Part shown: positions 25,468 through 45,217 of the stretch, piece after piece
Position numbering within the stretch: the first letter of the stretch is position 1
Layout: each line of letters opens with the position of its first letter
Assembly: GCF_025370875.1 (NCBI RefSeq)
Contig: NZ_JAMXFD010000002.1
Location: 132,218-196,217 of the forward strand
DNA length: 64,000 nucleotides
Origin: Laspinema palackyanum D2c
GTDB lineage: Bacteria; Cyanobacteriota; Cyanobacteriia; Cyanobacteriales; Laspinemataceae
Reading direction: 5' to 3'
Position numbers and translations under genes: made by a program
The notes under the pieces: model-generated
Seen by the model: the letters and a program-made list of their open reading frames with translations, nothing else
Databases searched by the model: none
What the model was told of the DNA's origin: nothing

Positions 25468-26844
25468 TTAAGCGTTATCACTTTGGACTTTAATGGTACT
25501 AAATTCCTGGAAAATGTATTTGTCCGCTCCCGTGCCGTCTCGTTGAACATATATACCTCCTACAATAAAGCCTAACTTATCAGCAAACTCAAGATCTTGT
25601 ATGATTTTTTTAACTGCAACTAACCACATTGAACTATCATTTTCAATCTGATCAGTTGCTATAACTATATATCCAAAATCTAAACTTTCCCTCGAAATTG
25701 TAAGTTGCATTTTTATGATAGATTCGCGGAGCGTCGTGAGATTAATTACTTTACCTTTTCTGTATTTTACTGTATATCCAACTTTAGAACCATTGGAATC
25801 ACGCAATATATCGATATATGAATCCCTTATTCTTTCATTATGGGTGATTAATTCATCAGGATACTCACCTATTAACCACTCAAAAACCGCTCGCTCAACT
25901 TTTAGACCAATTAAAGCTGCAGGTAAATATTTATTTAAGTCGGCAATCTCTTCTATTTCCTGTTTTGAATAGTCTGAAATTTTAGTACCTAAATGTTCTT
26001 CTGCAAACCGAATAAAGCCTTTTGAGTTATACATATAGAATAGAGAAACCCCTGCTTCATCCATTTCTTGAATTAACTCTAGGCGTGGGCCAATAGTTTT
26101 ACCTGAGTTTATATTCCACCAATCTTCTTTTTCATCATCAGTAATAAAAATTATGTGCTTCCAATTACGAGATTCGACTTCTTTTAAAAGCTCTTTCCAA
26201 AGAATTAGATCCCCATACTCTCTTTTGAACTCCATTTCTTTATATAGATAAGGAGGGTATTTTGATTTTTCTTTTTTATAATGATCGCAAAATCCTGGAG
26301 GATATTTTATTTTATATCTTTCTTGCCCATCTTTATATATATCCATTAATGTTCCCTTGGCCGGAATTTCTCCAATTTTACCATGAAAGAGCTCATCTAC
26401 TATGTCTCTTATTGCATCATGTTTAGTTAATTCTAATTTCTCGTATATCAAAGAATTCTTAGTGTTCAAGTATTCCAATAATTCCTTGTCAAGTCTTCCA
26501 ATTAAACTCTTTGGGTTTACACTGTAGAATTTACGAATATCCCCCAAAAATGCAGTTTTATGCTTCTCCCATTTACTTTTAATTGTGTCAATTTGTGTTT
26601 GTTGAGATTCAATTAGCGTAAGACGCTTCTCTTGAAACTCAAGGGCAACTTGATGAGGAATCCATAACCGTTCTTCAATTTTACGAAGGATATTATTGGT
26701 AAAATCATTGCGAGTATTTTTACTATATCGATAAAGGTTCAATAGTATATTTGTATCAAATACAAATATGCAGTTTTCCCAAAGTTCTTTAAACTGCTCT
26801 TGATTTAATGAATAATATCCGGGAAATAATTTTTTCATGTCCAT
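25468..26844 (-). CDS. PIN-like domain protein (PIN_8 type)
   Basis: 458 residues from the ATG at 26844; a TTG at 26874 would add ten residues, and ATG 26838 is also possible. The N-terminus carries a PIN-like nuclease core: CIFVFDTNILLNLYRYS holds the first aspartate, VALEFQEKR the conserved glutamate, and IIFITDDEKEDWW the later acidic cluster. The C-terminal 170 residues form a separate domain of unknown type. The gene is markedly richer in A+T than the flanking housekeeping genes, which fits horizontal transfer. PIN_8 proteins are often found beside restriction-modification genes; an RNase or DNase role is inference. Confidence 0.75.
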   Translation of the reverse strand: MDMKKLFPGYYSLNQEQFKELWENCIFVFDTNILLNLYRYSKNTRNDFTNNILRKIEERLWIPHQVALEFQEKRLTLIESQQTQIDTIKSKWEKHKTAFLGDIRKFYSVNPKSLIGRLDKELLEYLNTKNSLIYEKLELTKHDAIRDIVDELFHGKIGEIPAKGTLMDIYKDGQERYKIKYPPGFCDHYKKEKSKYPPYLYKEMEFKREYGDLILWKELLKEVESRNWKHIIFITDDEKEDWWNINSGKTIGPRLELIQEMDEAGVSLFYMYNSKGFIRFAEEHLGTKISDYSKQEIEEIADLNKYLPAALIGLKVERAVFEWLIGEYPDELITHNERIRDSYIDILRDSNGSKVGYTVKYRKGKVINLTTLRESIIKMQLTISRESLDFGYIVIATDQIENDSSMWLVAVKKIIQDLEFADKLGFIVGGIYVQRDGTGADKYIFQEFSTIKVQSDNA

Positions 26845-26890
26845 GACAAATTTTGTGAACAAACCCCAATACAATCCTAGTTAGATAATT

Positions 26891-27531
26891 CTAATCTGCC
26901 AAATTTTCTGTAAACTCAATCAAATCCTCCAATTCCTCTTCACTAAACCACCTCTCCACAGCATCCTCACTAAACCGATCAAGCGGTTCCTCATACAAAA
27001 TTTCTCAATATAAACCTGTTCTCCCCCTTCTCCTAAAGTAATATACCCGCTAACGGCAATGTGATCGGCTAAATCAATCTCCATCCACAAACGAAATCAA
27101 TCTCAATCCACAAACGAAATCAATCTCAATCCACAAACGAAATCAATCTCCACAAACGAACTCGGACGCGATCGCCGATTCTTCATCTGACTCGCCAAAT
27201 CTGCGATAATGCGGTTTAACTGTTCCGGTGTCGCCGTTCTTAGCTTAGAGGAAAAACAGCTCTGGCGCTTCTCAATCTCCGTAACGTAACGCCTTACTTG
27301 CTGTTCTGCTACCCTGGGATCGCGGCTTTGTCGCTTCGCCTCCACAACTGCGATCGCCTCGCCGTTCGGCTGATAGAGACAATAATCCGTAACTCCGTTC
27401 CAAGGTTCTGCATCGTAGCCATCCACCGGAATCTCTATCCCCACCTGGTTGGGATCTTCGAGATTCCATCCCGCTGTCTGTAGGGCTTTATCGATTAATT
27501 CTTTTCGGGTGTTCGCTTCGTTACGAGACAT
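26891..27531 (-). pseudogene. hsdR-like (type I restriction R subunit) remnant with large internal deletion
   Basis: From the ATG at 27531, about 90 residues match the nuclease N-terminus of HsdR-like proteins (NTRKELIDKALQTAGWNLED, DYCLYQPNGEAIAVVEAKRQ with the D...ExK motif). The frame then jumps to a distal part (TPEQLNRIIADLASQMKNRR, PSSFVEID). A 23-bp tandem repeat interrupts it. Homology resumes as EIDLADHIAVSGYITLGEGG and, after another frameshift near 27000, as SEDAVERWFSEEELEDLIEF to the stop at 26891. The helicase core is gone. Confidence 0.7.
27073..27160. repeat. 23-bp tandem repeat inside the hsdR remnant
   Basis: Three full units, ATCAATCTC(C/A)ATCCACAAAC plus GAA, at 27073, 27096 and 27119, and a shortened fourth ending at 27160. 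A period of 23 is not a multiple of three, so the expansion shifts the reading frame. The unit includes the original EIDL-coding segment, so it arose by slippage inside the gene. Confidence 0.85.
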
Positions 27532-27730
27532 TACGATATGATTTGCTGGCCCAATTTAGAGATATTGCGCGATCGCTCCACTCCTCTACTTTACCCGACA
27601 ACAGGTCGTAAACTTGATCCAACGGATGTCCTGGGCTCACCCACCCCAAAGTTGGGTCATCTTTGAGCAATTCTCGATCGCAAGCAATCCGTGCCCATTC
27701 TGCCATAGCTGAGGCGATCGCTAGAGCCAC
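27521..27730 (-). pseudogene. fragment of a helicase-like gene, 5' end cut at the insertion border
   Basis: The frame (EWARIACDRELLKDD, then PTLGWVSPGHPLDQVYDLLS) resembles an internal segment of large SNF2-type helicases of restriction or defence loci; from memory, these carry a W-V-x-P-G-H-P-L motif. It begins 4 bp from the right direct repeat and ends by overlapping the hsdR remnant. It is therefore truncated at both ends. Confidence 0.45.
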
Positions 27731-27733
27731 TCC

Positions 27734-27893
27734 GCATCAGGGGAATTCTTACGAAAACATATCAAAACGGAGGAATGGCCCAAATCCAGATAAAATAGGG
27801 GTACTGTACTCTGGTGCAACGCCCTAATCCATGTCTGCAATCTCAAACGCCCCCTTTTCTCCGGAAGAAATCGCTGCCGAAAGTCTGAAACCG
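27734..27893 (+). repeat. right 160-bp direct repeat: dead doc tail plus working purL promoter and start
   Basis: Counterpart of 23867-24027. Here the doc tail reads ASGEFLRKHIKTEEW with no stop codon, so it is dead, while purL starts at ATG 27831 and is intact. Outside the two repeats the sequences are unrelated. Confidence 0.9.
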
Positions 27894-30800
27894 GCAGAAT
27901 ATGAAGAAATCGTCAAACGCCTAGGACGTCATCCCAATAAAGCAGAATTGGGAATGTTTGGCGTGATGTGGTCCGAACACTGTTGTTATAAGAACTCCCG
28001 TCCCCTGCTGAAACAGTTTCCCACCACCGGCGATCGCATCCTAGTCGGTCCTGGAGAAAATGCCGGGGTGATAGACTGCGGAGACGGTTTGCGCCTCGCC
28101 TTCAAAATCGAATCCCATAACCACCCCTCGGCGATCGAACCCTTCCAAGGTGCAGCCACCGGCGTTGGCGGTATCCTCCGAGATATCTTTACAATGGGTG
28201 CACGCCCGATCGCCCTTCTCAACTCCCTCCGCTTCGGAAATATCGAAGACCCCCGCACTCGCCGCATCTTCACCGGCGTTGTAGAAGGGATCAGCCATTA
28301 CGGAAACTGCTTGATCAAGAGCGAAACCCTAATCTGGCGGGATAAAAATGGCGTTCATTTCGATACCATCGGCAACTTTGTCGAATCCCATTTACCCCCA
28401 AATCAAACCACCGCAGAACTTGATCCCAGCGCTGGCATTGAAACCCTCTCTCTGGAACCTAATACCCAGCAGAGTTGCTGGCAACCCGTTCGCCGCGTCT
28501 TCAAACGATGCGCCACCAACTTAATTACCATCCGCACAGCATTGGGTCGGACCCTAACCATGACCCCGGATCATCCGATGTGCATTTTAGAAGAGGGAAT
28601 CTGGCAGACTCGCAATGCCGACAGCTTAAAGCAGGGGGATCTTCTTCCCATCCTGATCAATATGCCCTCCCCCCAGACAGAATCCACTGGGGAAGTTCCC
28701 GCCTTGGATCTGCTGGATGCCTTAGACGATCGCTACCTCGGAAATCAAGACGTTTACGTTGCTCTCCCTCCAAAGTGGCAGATTTCCACCGAAATCCGTG
28801 ATGCCTTGTGTTCCATCGAACCTTCCCCCGTTAATCGGCATCGATACCTCAGCAAAGGCATATTACCCCTGCCCTATTTTCTCAAATTAGAACCCCTCCT
28901 CGACGTATCGCGCAGTAGCATCCGCCTCTATCGGCGCAGCGGCAAAGCTAACTACATGAATGCCATCATTCAGCCGGATGAAACATTTGCACGCTTACTC
29001 GGCTACTACCTCTCGGAAGGCTGCGTTTCTGAAAATGGCAAGACCTATAAAATAATTTTCACCTTTGGTCTCCATGAAAGCGAATATGTTCATGATGTCA
29101 TGGATGGACTCAAAACCCTCGGACTGCGCCCCTGCGTCGAAACCCGGGAGTCTACGATCGCCGTTTATGCCACATCCTGGCTATTAGGTTATCTCTTAAA
29201 AGAAGTATGGCAATGTGGCAGTGACGCCAGTCATAAAGCCTTACCCGATTTTATCTTCCAATGGCCTCGTTCTTTACAGCGTGAGGCACTCAAAGGCTTG
29301 TTACGCGGCGATGGTTCTTTAACCACCAAAACTCATGGCAATCATGCCAAAATTAGCTTTGCCACGACCAGCCATAAACTGTTTGAGCAAGTAACTTTGC
29401 TGATGCAGAGCTTCGGCGCTATTCCGCTAATCTATCAGCAACCCGCCAAAGAAACCAATATTCAAGGCCGCATCTATCAGCGTAAAGCCTTATGGCAAAT
29501 GGAAGTTTGCAATGTCTACGGACTCACCGCATTAGCTGATGTTTTTGGAGAAGAACGCAACGCCGAATTAGCTACAGCGTTGGAACGTTATAACGGGACA
29601 AAATATTCATTCCCCCGTTATTCCATCTCCAATGAACTCGCATTTGTCCAAATTAAGAGCATTGAAACGAATGCGGTTGAAGAATGCGATGTCTACGATA
29701 TTGAAGTGGACAACACTCATCTGTTTGTGACCACCTCCGGCATTGTCACCCATAACTGTGTTGGGGTGCCCACAGTTGGGGGCGAAGTGTACTTCGATCG
29801 CGCCTATACCGGCAATCCCCTCGTCAATGTCATGGCATTAGGGATTATGGAAACCCCGGAAATTGTCAAATCCGGTGCTTCCGGTGTCGGTAATCCCGTC
29901 CTCTATGTCGGTTCTACCACCGGCAGAGATGGCATGGGAGGGGCAAGTTTCGCCAGTGCAGAACTCACCGATAAATCCGCAGACGATCGCCCTGCCGTCC
30001 AAGTCGGTGACCCCTTCCTAGAAAAATCCCTCATCGAAGCCTGTTTAGAAGCCTTCAACACGGGCGCAGTGGTTGCCGCGCAGGATATGGGTGCTGCGGG
30101 AATTACTTGTTCCACCTCAGAAATGGCAGCGAAAGGTAATCTCGGCATTGAACTGGATTTAGACTTAATTCCCGTCCGAGAAACCGGCATGGTTCCCTAC
30201 GAGTTCCTCCTCTCCGAATCCCAGGAACGGATGCTGTTTGTGGCACACAAGGGACGGGAACAAGAACTGATTGAGATTTTCCATCGTTGGGGACTGCAAG
30301 CAGTAATTGCCGGGACGGTGATTGCTGAACCGATTGTGCGGATTCTCCATCAAGGAGGAGTTGCCGCAGAAATCCCCTGTCGCGCTTTAGCGGAAGATAC
30401 CCCCATTTACGATCGCCAGTTAATGGCAGAACCTCCAGAATATGCCCAAAAAGCATGGCAATGGACTCCCGCTACCCTTCCCCCTTGCACCGCAGAAGGC
30501 ATCGAAATCCAAGGCAAGTCCCAGACTTGGACTGAGATTTTACTGCAATTGTTAGATACTCCCACCATTGCCTCAAAGCGGTGGGTATATCGGCAATACG
30601 ATCATCAGGTGCAGAATAATACCGTCTTGTTGCCTGGAGGGGGAGATGCAGCAGTCGTTCGGTTACGTCCCCAAGAACCCCTCTCCTCCACTCCTGCAAC
30701 TCATCGCGGGGTTGCCGCTACCGTCGATTGCAATTCCCGGTATGTGTATCTGGACCCCTACGAAGGGGCAAAGGCAGTGGTGGCAGAAGCTGCCCGCAAT

Positions 30801-31649
30801 TTAAGCTGTGTCGGTGCCGAACCCATTGCGGTGACGGATAATCTCAATTTCGGCAGTCCCGAAAAACCTGTCGGCTATTGGCAGTTAGCATCCGCTTGTA
30901 AAGGCATTTCTGAAGCTTGTACCGAGTTTTCTACTCCCGTAACTGGGGGGAATGTCTCTCTGTACAATGAAACCCTCGATGCCAAGGGAGAACCGACGCC
31001 GATTTATCCCACCCCAGTGATTGGCATGGTGGGGTTGATTCCCGATATTAGCCAAGTTTGTGGACAAGGGTGGCGCAATCCCGGGGATGTGATTTATCTA
31101 TTAGGATTACCTATTGCTGCGATTACCCCGAATGTTTCTTTAGGCGGTTCGGAATATTTAGCCGCTATTCACGAGATAGTTGCTGGTAAACCGCCCGTGG
31201 TGGATTATCAGGTGGAACGACAAGTCCAAGCCACCTGTCGGGAAGGGATTCGCCAAGGGTGGATACAATCAGCCCACGATTCAGCGGAAGGGGGCTTAGT
31301 GGTGGCTTTGGCTGAATCCTGTATTGGCGGGAATTTAGGGGCGAAAATTACCCTGAATGTTGATGCAGCAGGCGTCTCGCGCTGGGATGAAATTTTATTT
31401 GCCGAAGGCGGTGCTCGAATTGTAGTCTCCGTGTCTCTAGAACAGGTGGAAAACTGGGAATCTTATTTACAACAGCACTTGGCAGGAAATTGGCAGAAAA
31501 TTGGGGAAGTATCGGAAATCCAGACAGGTTTAATCGTTAATTCCGATGTTAACCTTCCCTTAATTGACGTTAGTATGGCAGATATGCGCGATCGCTGGTC
31601 CAATGCCATCGAACGTCGCCTATCTGCATCCCCAAACCTTCCCGGTTGA
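27831..31649 (+). CDS. purL: phosphoribosylformylglycinamidine synthase subunit PurL, intein-containing precursor
   Basis: 1272-residue precursor. Residues 1-159 and 643-1272 form a normal-sized PurL (789 residues) that makes FGAM from FGAR, ATP and glutamine-derived ammonia in step four of purine synthesis. Conserved blocks: [37 protein letters not shown], and the C-terminal [12 protein letters not shown]. The intein is inserted between N159 and C643, in the motif that reads [16 protein letters not shown] once spliced. purF follows after 33 bp, so the two form an operon. The promoter lies in the duplicated segment at 27734-27830. Confidence 0.95.
28308..29756 (+). other. 483-residue PurL intein with LAGLIDADG homing endonuclease
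   Basis: Precursor residues 160-642. Block A starts with Cys1 ([10 protein letters not shown]). Block B holds the T-x-x-H motif ([12 protein letters not shown]). Two dodecapeptide-type endonuclease motifs follow, [11 protein letters not shown] and [10 protein letters not shown], both with their acidic residue. Block F is [19 protein letters not shown], and block G is IVTHN followed by Cys+1 of the extein. Every residue needed for class 1 splicing (Cys1, TxxH, penultimate His, terminal Asn, Cys+1) is present and the frame is open, so it should splice and may still home. Base composition is similar to purL. Confidence 0.93.
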
Positions 31650-31682
31650 TCTACTACCCCAAACAGGAGCGAAGCCGTAAGC

Positions 31683-33221
31683 ATGATCCCCAATCATCCC
31701 TTGTCCTCTGACGAGCATTATCCTGCATCCGCAGAGTCTTTGAGCGAACCCACTGAGGTTAACCCTGCTGTGTCCAACCGCCCGGATAAACCGGAAGAAG
31801 CCTGTGGCGTGTTTGGAGTTTATGCTCCCGGTGAAGATGTGGCAAAAATGACCTATTTTGGCCTTTATGCCCTTCAGCATCGGGGTCAAGAATCCGCTGG
31901 AATTGCGACGTTTGATAGTAATGCCCAAGTTCATTTGCATAAAGGCATGGGGCTAGTCTCTCAAGTCTTTAATGAGACGATTCTGGGGGAATTACCCGGA
32001 CATTTGGCGGTGGGACATACCCGGTATTCGACGACGGGAACCAGTCGGGTGGTAAATGCTCAACCGGCGATCGTCCAGACTCGGTTAGGTCCTTTGGCCT
32101 TAGCACATAATGGTAATCTTGTCAATACGGCAAGTCTGGGTCAAGAGTTGATCGACCAAAAGTGCAACCTGATCACGACAACGGATTCTGAAATGATTGC
32201 TTGGGCGATCGGGTTGGAAGTGGACAAGGGTAAAGATTGGTTAGATGCTGCTATCAGTGCCTTTCATCGCTGTAAGGGAGCCTATAGCTTGGCGATCGCC
32301 ACCCCCACAGGCATCATGGGAGCCCGGGACCCCAACGGCATTCGTCCCCTGGTGATTGGTACCTTAGAGGGTACTCCTACCCGCTATGTTCTGGCATCGG
32401 AAACCTGTGGATTAGACATCATTGGTGCAGAATACCTGCGCGATGTAGAACCCGGAGAGTTAGTCTGGATTGGGGAAGAAGGATTAGCCTCTTTCCATTG
32501 GAGTCAAGAATCCCAGCGCAAACTTTGTATCTTTGAGATGATATACTTTGCGCGACCCGATAGCATCATGTGCAATGAATCCTTGTATAGCTATCGCCTG
32601 CAACTGGGACGACAACTGGCGAAAGAATCTCCCGCTGATGTGGATATCGTCATCGGCGTTCCCGACTCCGGCATTCCGGCGGCGATCGGTTTTTCCCAGA
32701 CATCGGGCATTCCCTACGCTGAGGGACTGATTAAAAACCGTTATGTTGGGCGCACCTTCATCCAACCCACTCAACACATGAGGGAGTCCGGGATTAAGAT
32801 GAAGCTCAACCCCCTCAAAGATGTCCTCGTCGGCAAAAAAGTCTTAATGGTGGATGATTCCATCGTGCGGGGTACTACCAGCCGCAAAATCGTCAAAGCC
32901 TTGCGGGATGCCGGTGCAACGGAAGTGCACATGAGGATTTCCTCCCCACCTGTGACGCATCCCTGCTTCTATGGCATTGATACCGACAGTCAGGATCAAC
33001 TGATTGCCGCGACAAAATCCGTAGCAGAGATTGAAGCACAAATCGAAGTAGACTCCCTCGCTTATTTGAGTTGGGAAGGAATGCTGATTGCTACGGGAGA
33101 AGACCCCAGTCGTTTCTGTTCCGCCTGTTTCACGGGAGATTATCCGATTCAAATCCCTGATCCGGTGAAACGTTCTAAGCTGATTATGGAGAAGGCTCTT
33201 TCTTCTACCCCCGCAGGCTAA
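31683..33221 (+). CDS. purF: amidophosphoribosyltransferase (glutamine PRPP amidotransferase)
   Basis: 512 residues. A short propeptide (about 40 residues) ends before the Ntn nucleophile cysteine in EEACGVFGVYAP. The glutaminase domain shows LQHRGQESAGIATFD and GHTRYSTTG; the PRPP motif is VLMVDDSIVRGTTS. Cysteines in CSACFTGDYP fit the Fe-S-bearing Bacillus-type enzyme. It makes phosphoribosylamine, the first committed step of purine synthesis, and sits 33 bp behind purL. The stop codon (33219-33221) lies in the loop of a family-F palindrome. Confidence 0.96.
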   Translation: MIPNHPLSSDEHYPASAESLSEPTEVNPAVSNRPDKPEEACGVFGVYAPGEDVAKMTYFGLYALQHRGQESAGIATFDSNAQVHLHKGMGLVSQVFNETILGELPGHLAVGHTRYSTTGTSRVVNAQPAIVQTRLGPLALAHNGNLVNTASLGQELIDQKCNLITTTDSEMIAWAIGLEVDKGKDWLDAAISAFHRCKGAYSLAIATPTGIMGARDPNGIRPLVIGTLEGTPTRYVLASETCGLDIIGAEYLRDVEPGELVWIGEEGLASFHWSQESQRKLCIFEMIYFARPDSIMCNESLYSYRLQLGRQLAKESPADVDIVIGVPDSGIPAAIGFSQTSGIPYAEGLIKNRYVGRTFIQPTQHMRESGIKMKLNPLKDVLVGKKVLMVDDSIVRGTTSRKIVKALRDAGATEVHMRISSPPVTHPCFYGIDTDSQDQLIAATKSVAEIEAQIEVDSLAYLSWEGMLIATGEDPSRFCSACFTGDYPIQIPDPVKRSKLIMEKALSSTPAG

Positions 33222-33760
33222 AGCCTGGGGCTATACGGACGAAGCCCGTGGTTCGACCCTTCGACGGACTCAGGGCTCACCAGAGCCCTGCGCGGGCTAA
33301 GAATTGTTCCCCCGTTTGTAGTAACGACTTCAGTCGTTTCCCCGTCCCCCGTTTGTAGTAACGACTTCAGTCGTTTCCGGCGTGACTTGGCCCCAGCCAA
33401 GTCACGCCCTGTTGCAAGTAGACTTAAGCAACATCAGGCCGCCAATCGTTTAAACGTTGGGGGCCTGTAGTGGCGCTTCGCGAAGCGCCACTACGGCGGG
33501 GGTTCAAACCCCCGCCTAATAGCTAAAGTCGGTTGAAACCGACTAGAAGTCTTATCCGGTGGTTTTTTTAGCCGTCTTAAGACAAATGCCAGCTATTATC
33601 AGCGGGTTCTAACCCCTATAGGTGTTGCAACGGGTGTAAGATGTCGGGTGAACCCGACTGAAAGTCTTAGGGGATGGTGTTTTTAGTCGGTTTTAACCGA
33701 CTTTAGCTATTAGGCCGCCAATCGATTTATCCCCCGCCGGTTGTTGCTGTTGCAACCTTT
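33213..33760. repeat. dense repeat block between purF and dnaJ
   Basis: In order: a family-F segment overlapping the purF stop; GCCC/GGGC hairpins; two family-B hairpins (about 33318 and 33355); a family-E hairpin at 33379-33408; a TAGTGGCGCTTCG/CGAAGCGCCACTA palindrome at about 33468-33493; then family-A units to 33760 with GCGGGGGTTC/GAACCCCCGC-type arms and AGTCGG/CCGACT stems. The whole 540-bp gap is made of repeats and has no gene. Confidence 0.85.
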
Positions 33761-44152: not shown

Positions 44153-45217
44153 GTGGGGCCAATTCGGGCAGTCTGTTGTGGATATTATGGAAAAGGGAAT
44201 GCCGGGGATGAGGCACTATTAGCCTCGTTATTGCAGATGCTGCCGGAAGGGGTCACCCCAGTGGTGCTATCGGGTAATCCCCCCCAGACTCGCGATCGCT
44301 ACCAAGTCGCTGCCTACAATCGGATGTCTGCCTTTTCTGTCTGGCAAGTGCTGCGGCAGTCGGATGTGTTTATTTGGGGGGGAGGTAGCTTGATCCAAGA
44401 TGTCACCAGCGCAGTGAGCCCCTTATATTATGCCGGGTTGATGGGATTGGCGCAGGGACTGGGATTGAAAACCATCGCCTGGGGACAAGGGGTCGGTCCT
44501 TTAAAACGCCCCTTCACCCGCCAGATTGCGAAACAGACTTTTTCTCGATGCACTCGGGTGAGTGTGCGCGATCGCGGTTCTGCTGCTTTACTCGCCGAAT
44601 GGCAGATTCCCTTTACAATGGCACCGGATCCGGTTTGGGCGTTAGAAGGGAAACCCGTTCCCGGGTTGTGGGATTTACCCGCCCCTCGGGTTGCGGTAAA
44701 CTTGCGATCGCATCCCCTGTTAACTCCCGCCCGATTAGACACTCTCACTCGTGCCTTAATTTCCTTTCAAAAAGCCACAAATACCTGTCTGTTATTGGTC
44801 CCGTTTCAAGCGTCTCAAGATTTGGCGATCGCTCAATCCATTCAAGCTCAACTTCCCGGTCCCAATCATCTATTTATGCTCGAAGACCCCCGGGAACTCA
44901 AAGGACTGTTTCGCGGGGTAGAAATGACCATCGGAATGCGATTACATAGTTTAATTATGGCTGCTGCGGAAGGATGTCGCTGTTTTGCCATTAGTTATGA
45001 TCCGAAAGTGACTCAACTCATGGCTGAATTAGAACTCCCCGGTTGGGAATTAGCTGATATCCCCGAAGACCCCAATATTATTAGTAAACTTTGGATAGAA
45101 CACTATGCCAATGGTGAACCCCTTTCTGATATCTCCATTCAAGCCATTGTCGATCGCGCCTTGATTCATGAAGAACTCTTGCATACTTTCTTTGCCAATT
45201 TTTTCAGCAGTTTCTAG
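44153..45217 (+). CDS. csaB: polysaccharide pyruvyl transferase CsaB
   Basis: 354 residues from a GTG preceded by AGGAGGA. N-terminal motif CCGYYGKGNAGDEALLASLLQML and the internal IWGGGSLIQDVTS and GMRLHSLIMAAAEG are those of CsaB/WcaK pyruvyltransferases. In bacteria with S-layers, CsaB adds ketal-pyruvate to the secondary cell-wall polymer that anchors SLH-domain proteins; cyanobacterial outer-membrane porins with SLH domains make the same role plausible. Confidence 0.9.
   Translation: MGPIRAVCCGYYGKGNAGDEALLASLLQMLPEGVTPVVLSGNPPQTRDRYQVAAYNRMSAFSVWQVLRQSDVFIWGGGSLIQDVTSAVSPLYYAGLMGLAQGLGLKTIAWGQGVGPLKRPFTRQIAKQTFSRCTRVSVRDRGSAALLAEWQIPFTMAPDPVWALEGKPVPGLWDLPAPRVAVNLRSHPLLTPARLDTLTRALISFQKATNTCLLLVPFQASQDLAIAQSIQAQLPGPNHLFMLEDPRELKGLFRGVEMTIGMRLHSLIMAAAEGCRCFAISYDPKVTQLMAELELPGWELADIPEDPNIISKLWIEHYANGEPLSDISIQAIVDRALIHEELLHTFFANFFSSF

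Follow-up and report, generated by a model that had tools for sequence, protein, structure and literature searches.

A LAGLIDADG-containing intein at a conserved PurL site in Laspinema palackyanum and other cyanobacteria, and a related lineage whose endonuclease seems conserved after loss of its catalytic acids

The window analyzed here, a stretch of 64,000 nucleotides from Laspinema palackyanum D2c, carries on its forward strand an intein-containing purL gene (27831-31649), which encodes a precursor of 1272 amino acids and is open throughout; no second purL was found in the genome. Translation and comparison with congeners divide it into an N-extein (PurL residues 1-159, ending in GISHYGN; 27831-28307, +), an insert of 483 amino acids (precursor residues 160-642; 28308-29756, +), and a C-extein (PurL residues 160-789; 29757-31646, +) that opens with the +1 Cys. 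The insert begins with Cys, as the translated ten-residue N-terminal start shows, ends in VTHN before the +1 Cys, and splits a conserved 12-residue motif of PurL. In profile searches, the 789 extein residues scored above cut-off against the PurL models NF002290 (1029 bits) and TIGR01736 (875 bits). The insert matched Intein_splicing (PF14890, 2.4e-16) and LAGLIDADG_3 (1.3e-12) in Pfam above the gathering scores, as well as the N- and C-terminal intein models TIGR01445 and TIGR01443 above cut-off, which places it far beyond chance. A previous sequence-only reading had placed a 483-residue insert at 28308-29756 in a purL of 1272 codons, which is correct to the base, and its account of the Cys start, the TxxH motif, the two endonuclease motifs, and VTHN followed by Cys holds in every part, as does the relation to inteins, which it had offered for checking by database search. 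The intein-free alleles that it proposed to seek in sister strains were also found: three of the eight congeners have an uninterrupted PurL of 789 amino acids, which reads through the site (compared over 17 residues) at the same codon, and thus the boundaries of the insert are exact. No intein-containing PurL model was among the NCBIfam matches, though models for other intein-containing hosts matched, and a search of 27300-33500 for RNA elements around purL gave no Rfam match. Adjoining purL on the opposite strand is a 142-amino-acid open reading frame (27103-27531, -) that resembles a portion of the R subunit of type I restriction enzymes (HSDR_N, 7e-9; PADLOC REase_I, 1.2e-14). Farther along (25468-26874, -) lies a 468-amino-acid protein with PIN_8 (3.4e-59) at residues 36-267 and additional sequence at the C-terminus; it had no PADLOC match.

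The residues of the splicing domain are arranged at both ends of the intein; blocks are lettered, and class 1 is assigned, according to the usage of the intein literature. At the N-terminal side are Cys1, the N-terminal splicing nucleophile of block A (28308-28310, +), and TPDH of block B at residues 86-89 (28563-28574, +). At the C-terminal side are the block at residues 462-477 (29691-29738, +), within the span of TIGR01443 (461-483), and GIVTHN of block G with His482 and Asn483 (29739-29756, +). In all 33 aligned full-length homologues, C1, T86, H89, D464, H482, and N483 are invariant, and the three mini-inteins described below all have C1, the block B motif, and the terminal HN. All 36 occupied alleles have Cys at +1; at 51 loci with an empty site, where some genomes are counted twice, this residue is Cys in 43 and Ser in eight. 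By sequence, the intein belongs to class 1, as it has Cys1 with TxxH, HN followed by Cys, matches to the splicing profiles, and intein-free alleles at the same codon. That the element is functional in splicing, as had been supposed, is supported by the invariant residues and by the open frame in the only purL found.

Between the splicing parts lies the endonuclease domain. Residues 126-226 (28683-28985, +), from block B to the first LAGLIDADG motif, are aligned in the homologues and are presumed to be the DNA-recognition part. Motif 1 is LLGYYLSEG (residues 230-238; 28995-29021, +) with the acid E237 (29016-29018), and motif 2 is LKGLLRGDG (residues 328-336; 29289-29315, +) with the acid D335 (29310-29312); a linker (residues 404-439; 29517-29624, +), which decays in the genus g172 discussed below, is C-terminal of the endonuclease body. 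Both acids were found in 25 of the 33 aligned members and also in the translation of G403, which is outside the alignment and brings the count to 26 of 34. The remaining eight full-length members, namely the seven aligned members of g172 and G418, lack both. G445 retains both acids and lacks the residues just after the second. Among the four full congener alleles (six pairs), dN/dS of the endonuclease part was 0.08-0.18. Two AlphaFold models (mean pLDDT 45.1 and 33.2) were too poor for use. The suggestion that the endonuclease may be active is supported by E237 and D335, by the low dN/dS, and by the signs of recent homing in related lineages described below. In the proposed mechanism, the 1272-amino-acid precursor would be translated whole, Cys1 and the +1 Cys of PurL would drive the acyl shifts, and cyclization of Asn483 would release a normal PurL of 789 amino acids and a free intein of 483 amino acids. 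Homing would follow: the LAGLIDADG endonuclease would cut at GN/CVGVP in purL alleles without the intein, and repair of the cut allele would copy the intein into it.

In the eight genomes of the window genus, four sites are full, one holds a mini-intein, and three are empty. The 483-amino-acid intein is in the window genome, G388, G390, and G392, and the empty site in G386, G389, and G391. The mini-intein of L. olomoucense (G387; 217 amino acids, L035:5001-5651) still matches the splicing profile and gives no match to LAGLIDADG. Its center is not a clean deletion: about 70 residues there do not resemble the full alleles, which might reflect conversion from another mini-intein or rapid divergence. 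In a draw of 386 genomes across the phylum, the intein query matched 37 and the PurL C-extein 231; nine of the 37, including the window genome, have full-length homologues in open reading frames of 1254-1347 amino acids, and the other matches are weak, many of them to inteins of other proteins. An overlapping draw from the order gave matches at E 1e-20 or better in 39 of 388 genomes, 38 at the PurL site and one (G393) in a nucleotide-sugar dehydrogenase. Together with G286 of the phylum draw, PurL-site inteins were verified in 39 genomes of this survey within Cyanobacteria, which span 14 family codes: 34 are full, three are mini-inteins, and two (G454 and G527) are truncated at contig ends; the latter two were excluded from alignments, except that G454 was used in the pair and motif comparison of g172. 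The mini-inteins (G387, 217; G567, 261; G476, 200 amino acids) are from three families and differ in their breakpoints. A scan for near-exact peptides found four loci, all in the window genus, although relatives of 55-72% exist in the genomes of the later searches. Eleven long PurL open reading frames chosen by eye as further mini-intein candidates were rejected, since all are empty sites.

Inteins were also observed in other proteins of these organisms. A short contiguous intein in DnaE of the window genome (L126, contig C3, about 44672-44851; open reading frame of 1401 amino acids) resembles the cyanobacterial split DnaE intein and is at what we take to be the split-intein site; in four family members (G393-G396), DnaE is split over two open reading frames (894-918 and 453-454 amino acids). 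Two further inteins of the window genome (L121, contig C47; L125, contig C58) are, by eye, in DnaB (open reading frame of 884 amino acids) and a ribonucleotide reductase (open reading frame of 1192 amino acids). Three others (L019, L085, and L024) are in cyanobacterial enzymes that appear by eye to be a sugar-nucleotide epimerase or decarboxylase and a PEP synthase.

The age of the intein relative to the surrounding gene was estimated with a simple Nei-Gojobori count. The inteins of G103 and G245 have three mismatches in 1446 nt while their exteins differ by 6.3% and 5.4%, with the nearest extein mismatches 106 nt upstream and at the sixth base downstream. For seven chosen pairs in which both acids are intact, dS of the intein divided by that of the exteins was 0.01, 0.57, 0.21, 0.25, 0.23, 0.52, and 0.67, whereas in nine pairs of g172, in which the acids are lost, this ratio was 1.29-2.21; it was thus below 1 in 7/7 and 0/9, respectively, with one interval of the g172 pairs extending down to 0.92. 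For the three g172 pairs that share no branch (1.44, 1.43, and 2.21), Fisher's exact test by hand (7/7 versus 0/3) gives 1/120, or 1/84 if the window-genus pairs are counted once because they may share a branch, as the two trees disagree there. The same division holds for all printed pairs whose extein dS is below 0.9 (15 of 15 intact below 1, 11 of 11 dead above 1), these pairs being not independent; in four intact pairs whose extein dS exceeds 1.0, the intein is not younger. In close pairs, then, the inteins with intact acids are younger than the surrounding PurL by this count, which we regard as the footprint of homing. Within the window genus, recent transfer is likely, although the evidence is only suggestive: the pair ratios are 0.52 (interval 0.34-0.74) and 0.67 (0.43-1.01), a sharp boundary is absent, and against the three other full alleles the window intein has a dS of 0.14-0.16, compared with 0.14-0.18 for the N-extein, 0.30-0.33 for the C-extein, and 0.19-0.45 for genes neighboring purL in the congeners listed. 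A pattern of recent homing at this PurL site is seen in relatives (G103-G245 and other pairs). Very probably, the window holds a class 1, endonuclease-containing intein that splices out and homes, at a PurL site shared by cyanobacteria under at least 14 family codes. Our confidence in splicing alone would be higher; that in the whole explanation is held back by the active endonuclease, evidence for which is only suggestive in the window genus.

One alternative is that the window intein splices but has an endonuclease that is already inactive, as an intermediate toward a mini-intein like the one in L. olomoucense, a congener that has lost the domain. Inactive or deleted forms are common in the family of inteins, as the eight full-length members without both acids and the three mini-inteins indicate, and the window genus lacks the sharp homing footprint. 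However, both motifs and both acids of the window endonuclease are intact, and the domain is constrained among the congeners, so that we consider this alternative unlikely. Somewhat less likely still is that the intein was inherited vertically and lost repeatedly, and that its low dS reflects ordinary recombination of purL or codon constraint instead of homing. The tree of the splicing domain and that of PurL are mostly concordant at the family level, from which it seems that transfer has been mainly local and which would also fit vertical inheritance. The low-divergence tract of G484-G451 extends about 500 bases into the C-extein, the edge of the G562-G550 tract is blurred on the C side, and the four older intact pairs are without the effect. 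On the other hand, the G103-G245 tract ends within six bases downstream and 106 bases upstream, the G562-G550 tract has a sharp edge at the N-side junction, and the reversed ratio in the dead-endonuclease lineage argues against a general codon effect. Moreover, on a PurL tree of 45 exteins, a non-random sample composed of the occupied exteins then known and fetched empty ones, occupancy requires eight changes, of which starred branches force five. A switch in which conditional splicing limits PurL, for example under redox stress, is very improbable: conditional splicing is reported for other inteins (PMC6195587) and the insertion is within a conserved enzyme motif, but three of the eight congeners live without the intein.

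The lineage that departs from the pattern of homing is genus g172. In its nine genomes, eight sites are readable (in G475, PurL runs off the contig end) and all eight are occupied, while the two genomes from the other genus of its family are empty. Both acids are lost in all eight readable genomes, the G454 fragment included, the motifs being LLGY(F/Y)(V/I/L)A(A/T)G and L(I/V)R(N/T)NPTIPNP. In LAGLIDADG enzymes, the loss of both acids is expected to abolish cutting. In three pairs, the endonuclease body (residues 126-403) nevertheless has a pN/pS of 0.13 with no gap in 844 codons, against 0.66 with gaps in 11 of 114 codons for the linker (404-439); in intact lineages, the linker has a pN/pS of 0.19 and no gap in 254 codons. 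The g172 splicing parts have pN/pS of 0.20 and 0.18, and the endonuclease body in seven intact pairs 0.17. Because the body is conserved and ungapped next to a decaying linker, it seems that selection has maintained an endonuclease body presumably unable to cut. The intein of this lineage looks immobile and inherited vertically, and it occupies every readable site. From the three mini-inteins elsewhere in the family of inteins, it appears that splicing does not simply depend on the domain. The dead endonuclease may have been taken over for another task, such as a folding helper or a regulator of PurL splicing, a proposal to which we give slightly less than an even chance; if true, the domain would be the protein-level counterpart of LAGLIDADG intron maturases. 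The body may instead be kept for purely structural reasons or hold an atypical active site, and all of the cases are from one genus.

A phage carrier as the origin of the PurL intein was not supported. PurL-like matches were found in 25 of 50,697 phage records, 13 of them in two pieces (23-61% of the 1272-amino-acid query) and 12 in a single piece within the C-extein, and in none does the intein appear as an additional piece; among the two-piece matches is a phage of Microcystis that carries purL and purF. Searching with the intein gave 12 phage records and one plasmid record, all distant, and two scans of viral contigs gave one and two weak partial matches. According to PMC7765530, inteins favor DNA metabolism and conserved functional sites, and metabolic enzymes are among their hosts. 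No earlier report of a PurL intein was found in the literature searched, which was covered by title and the start of the abstract, with subscription journals and intein databases outside its scope. Within that literature PurL appears new as a host, while this kind of intein is already known. The sequence-only reading concerned the window intein; the same PurL site in other families, the empty and mini alleles of congeners, and the dead-endonuclease lineage go beyond it. The surprising part is the g172 lineage, in which the dead but conserved endonuclease is the most novel feature. These results extend the hosts of inteins to an enzyme of de novo purine synthesis in many cyanobacterial families and amount to a natural experiment at a single site, where intact lineages look recently invaded, a dead lineage seems vertical and full, and three lineages are trimmed; the homing cycle and the reason for conserving a dead endonuclease thereby become directly testable.

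The best solved relative of the window intein is PI-PkoII (PDB 2cw7), an archaeal DOD homing-endonuclease intein, which aligns over both motifs with a profile E of 5.8e-17. Like the window intein, it has splicing blocks flanking a LAGLIDADG domain, but the overall similarity is only weak, and it is inserted in another host protein and at another site. The closest non-PurL relatives found are two inteins in the window's family (L083 and L086), which are 33-34% identical over residues 42-483, begin with CLVG, and have a +1 Cys. Unlike the PurL intein, they are inserted at GGH/C of another enzyme, named by eye as a nucleotide-sugar dehydrogenase, where the site is probably the catalytic Cys. The PurL site resembles the homing cycle of inteins as set out in PMC7765530, in that empty, full, inactive, and trimmed alleles coexist. 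It differs from that account in g172, where the inactive endonuclease body appears to be under purifying selection and does not decay.
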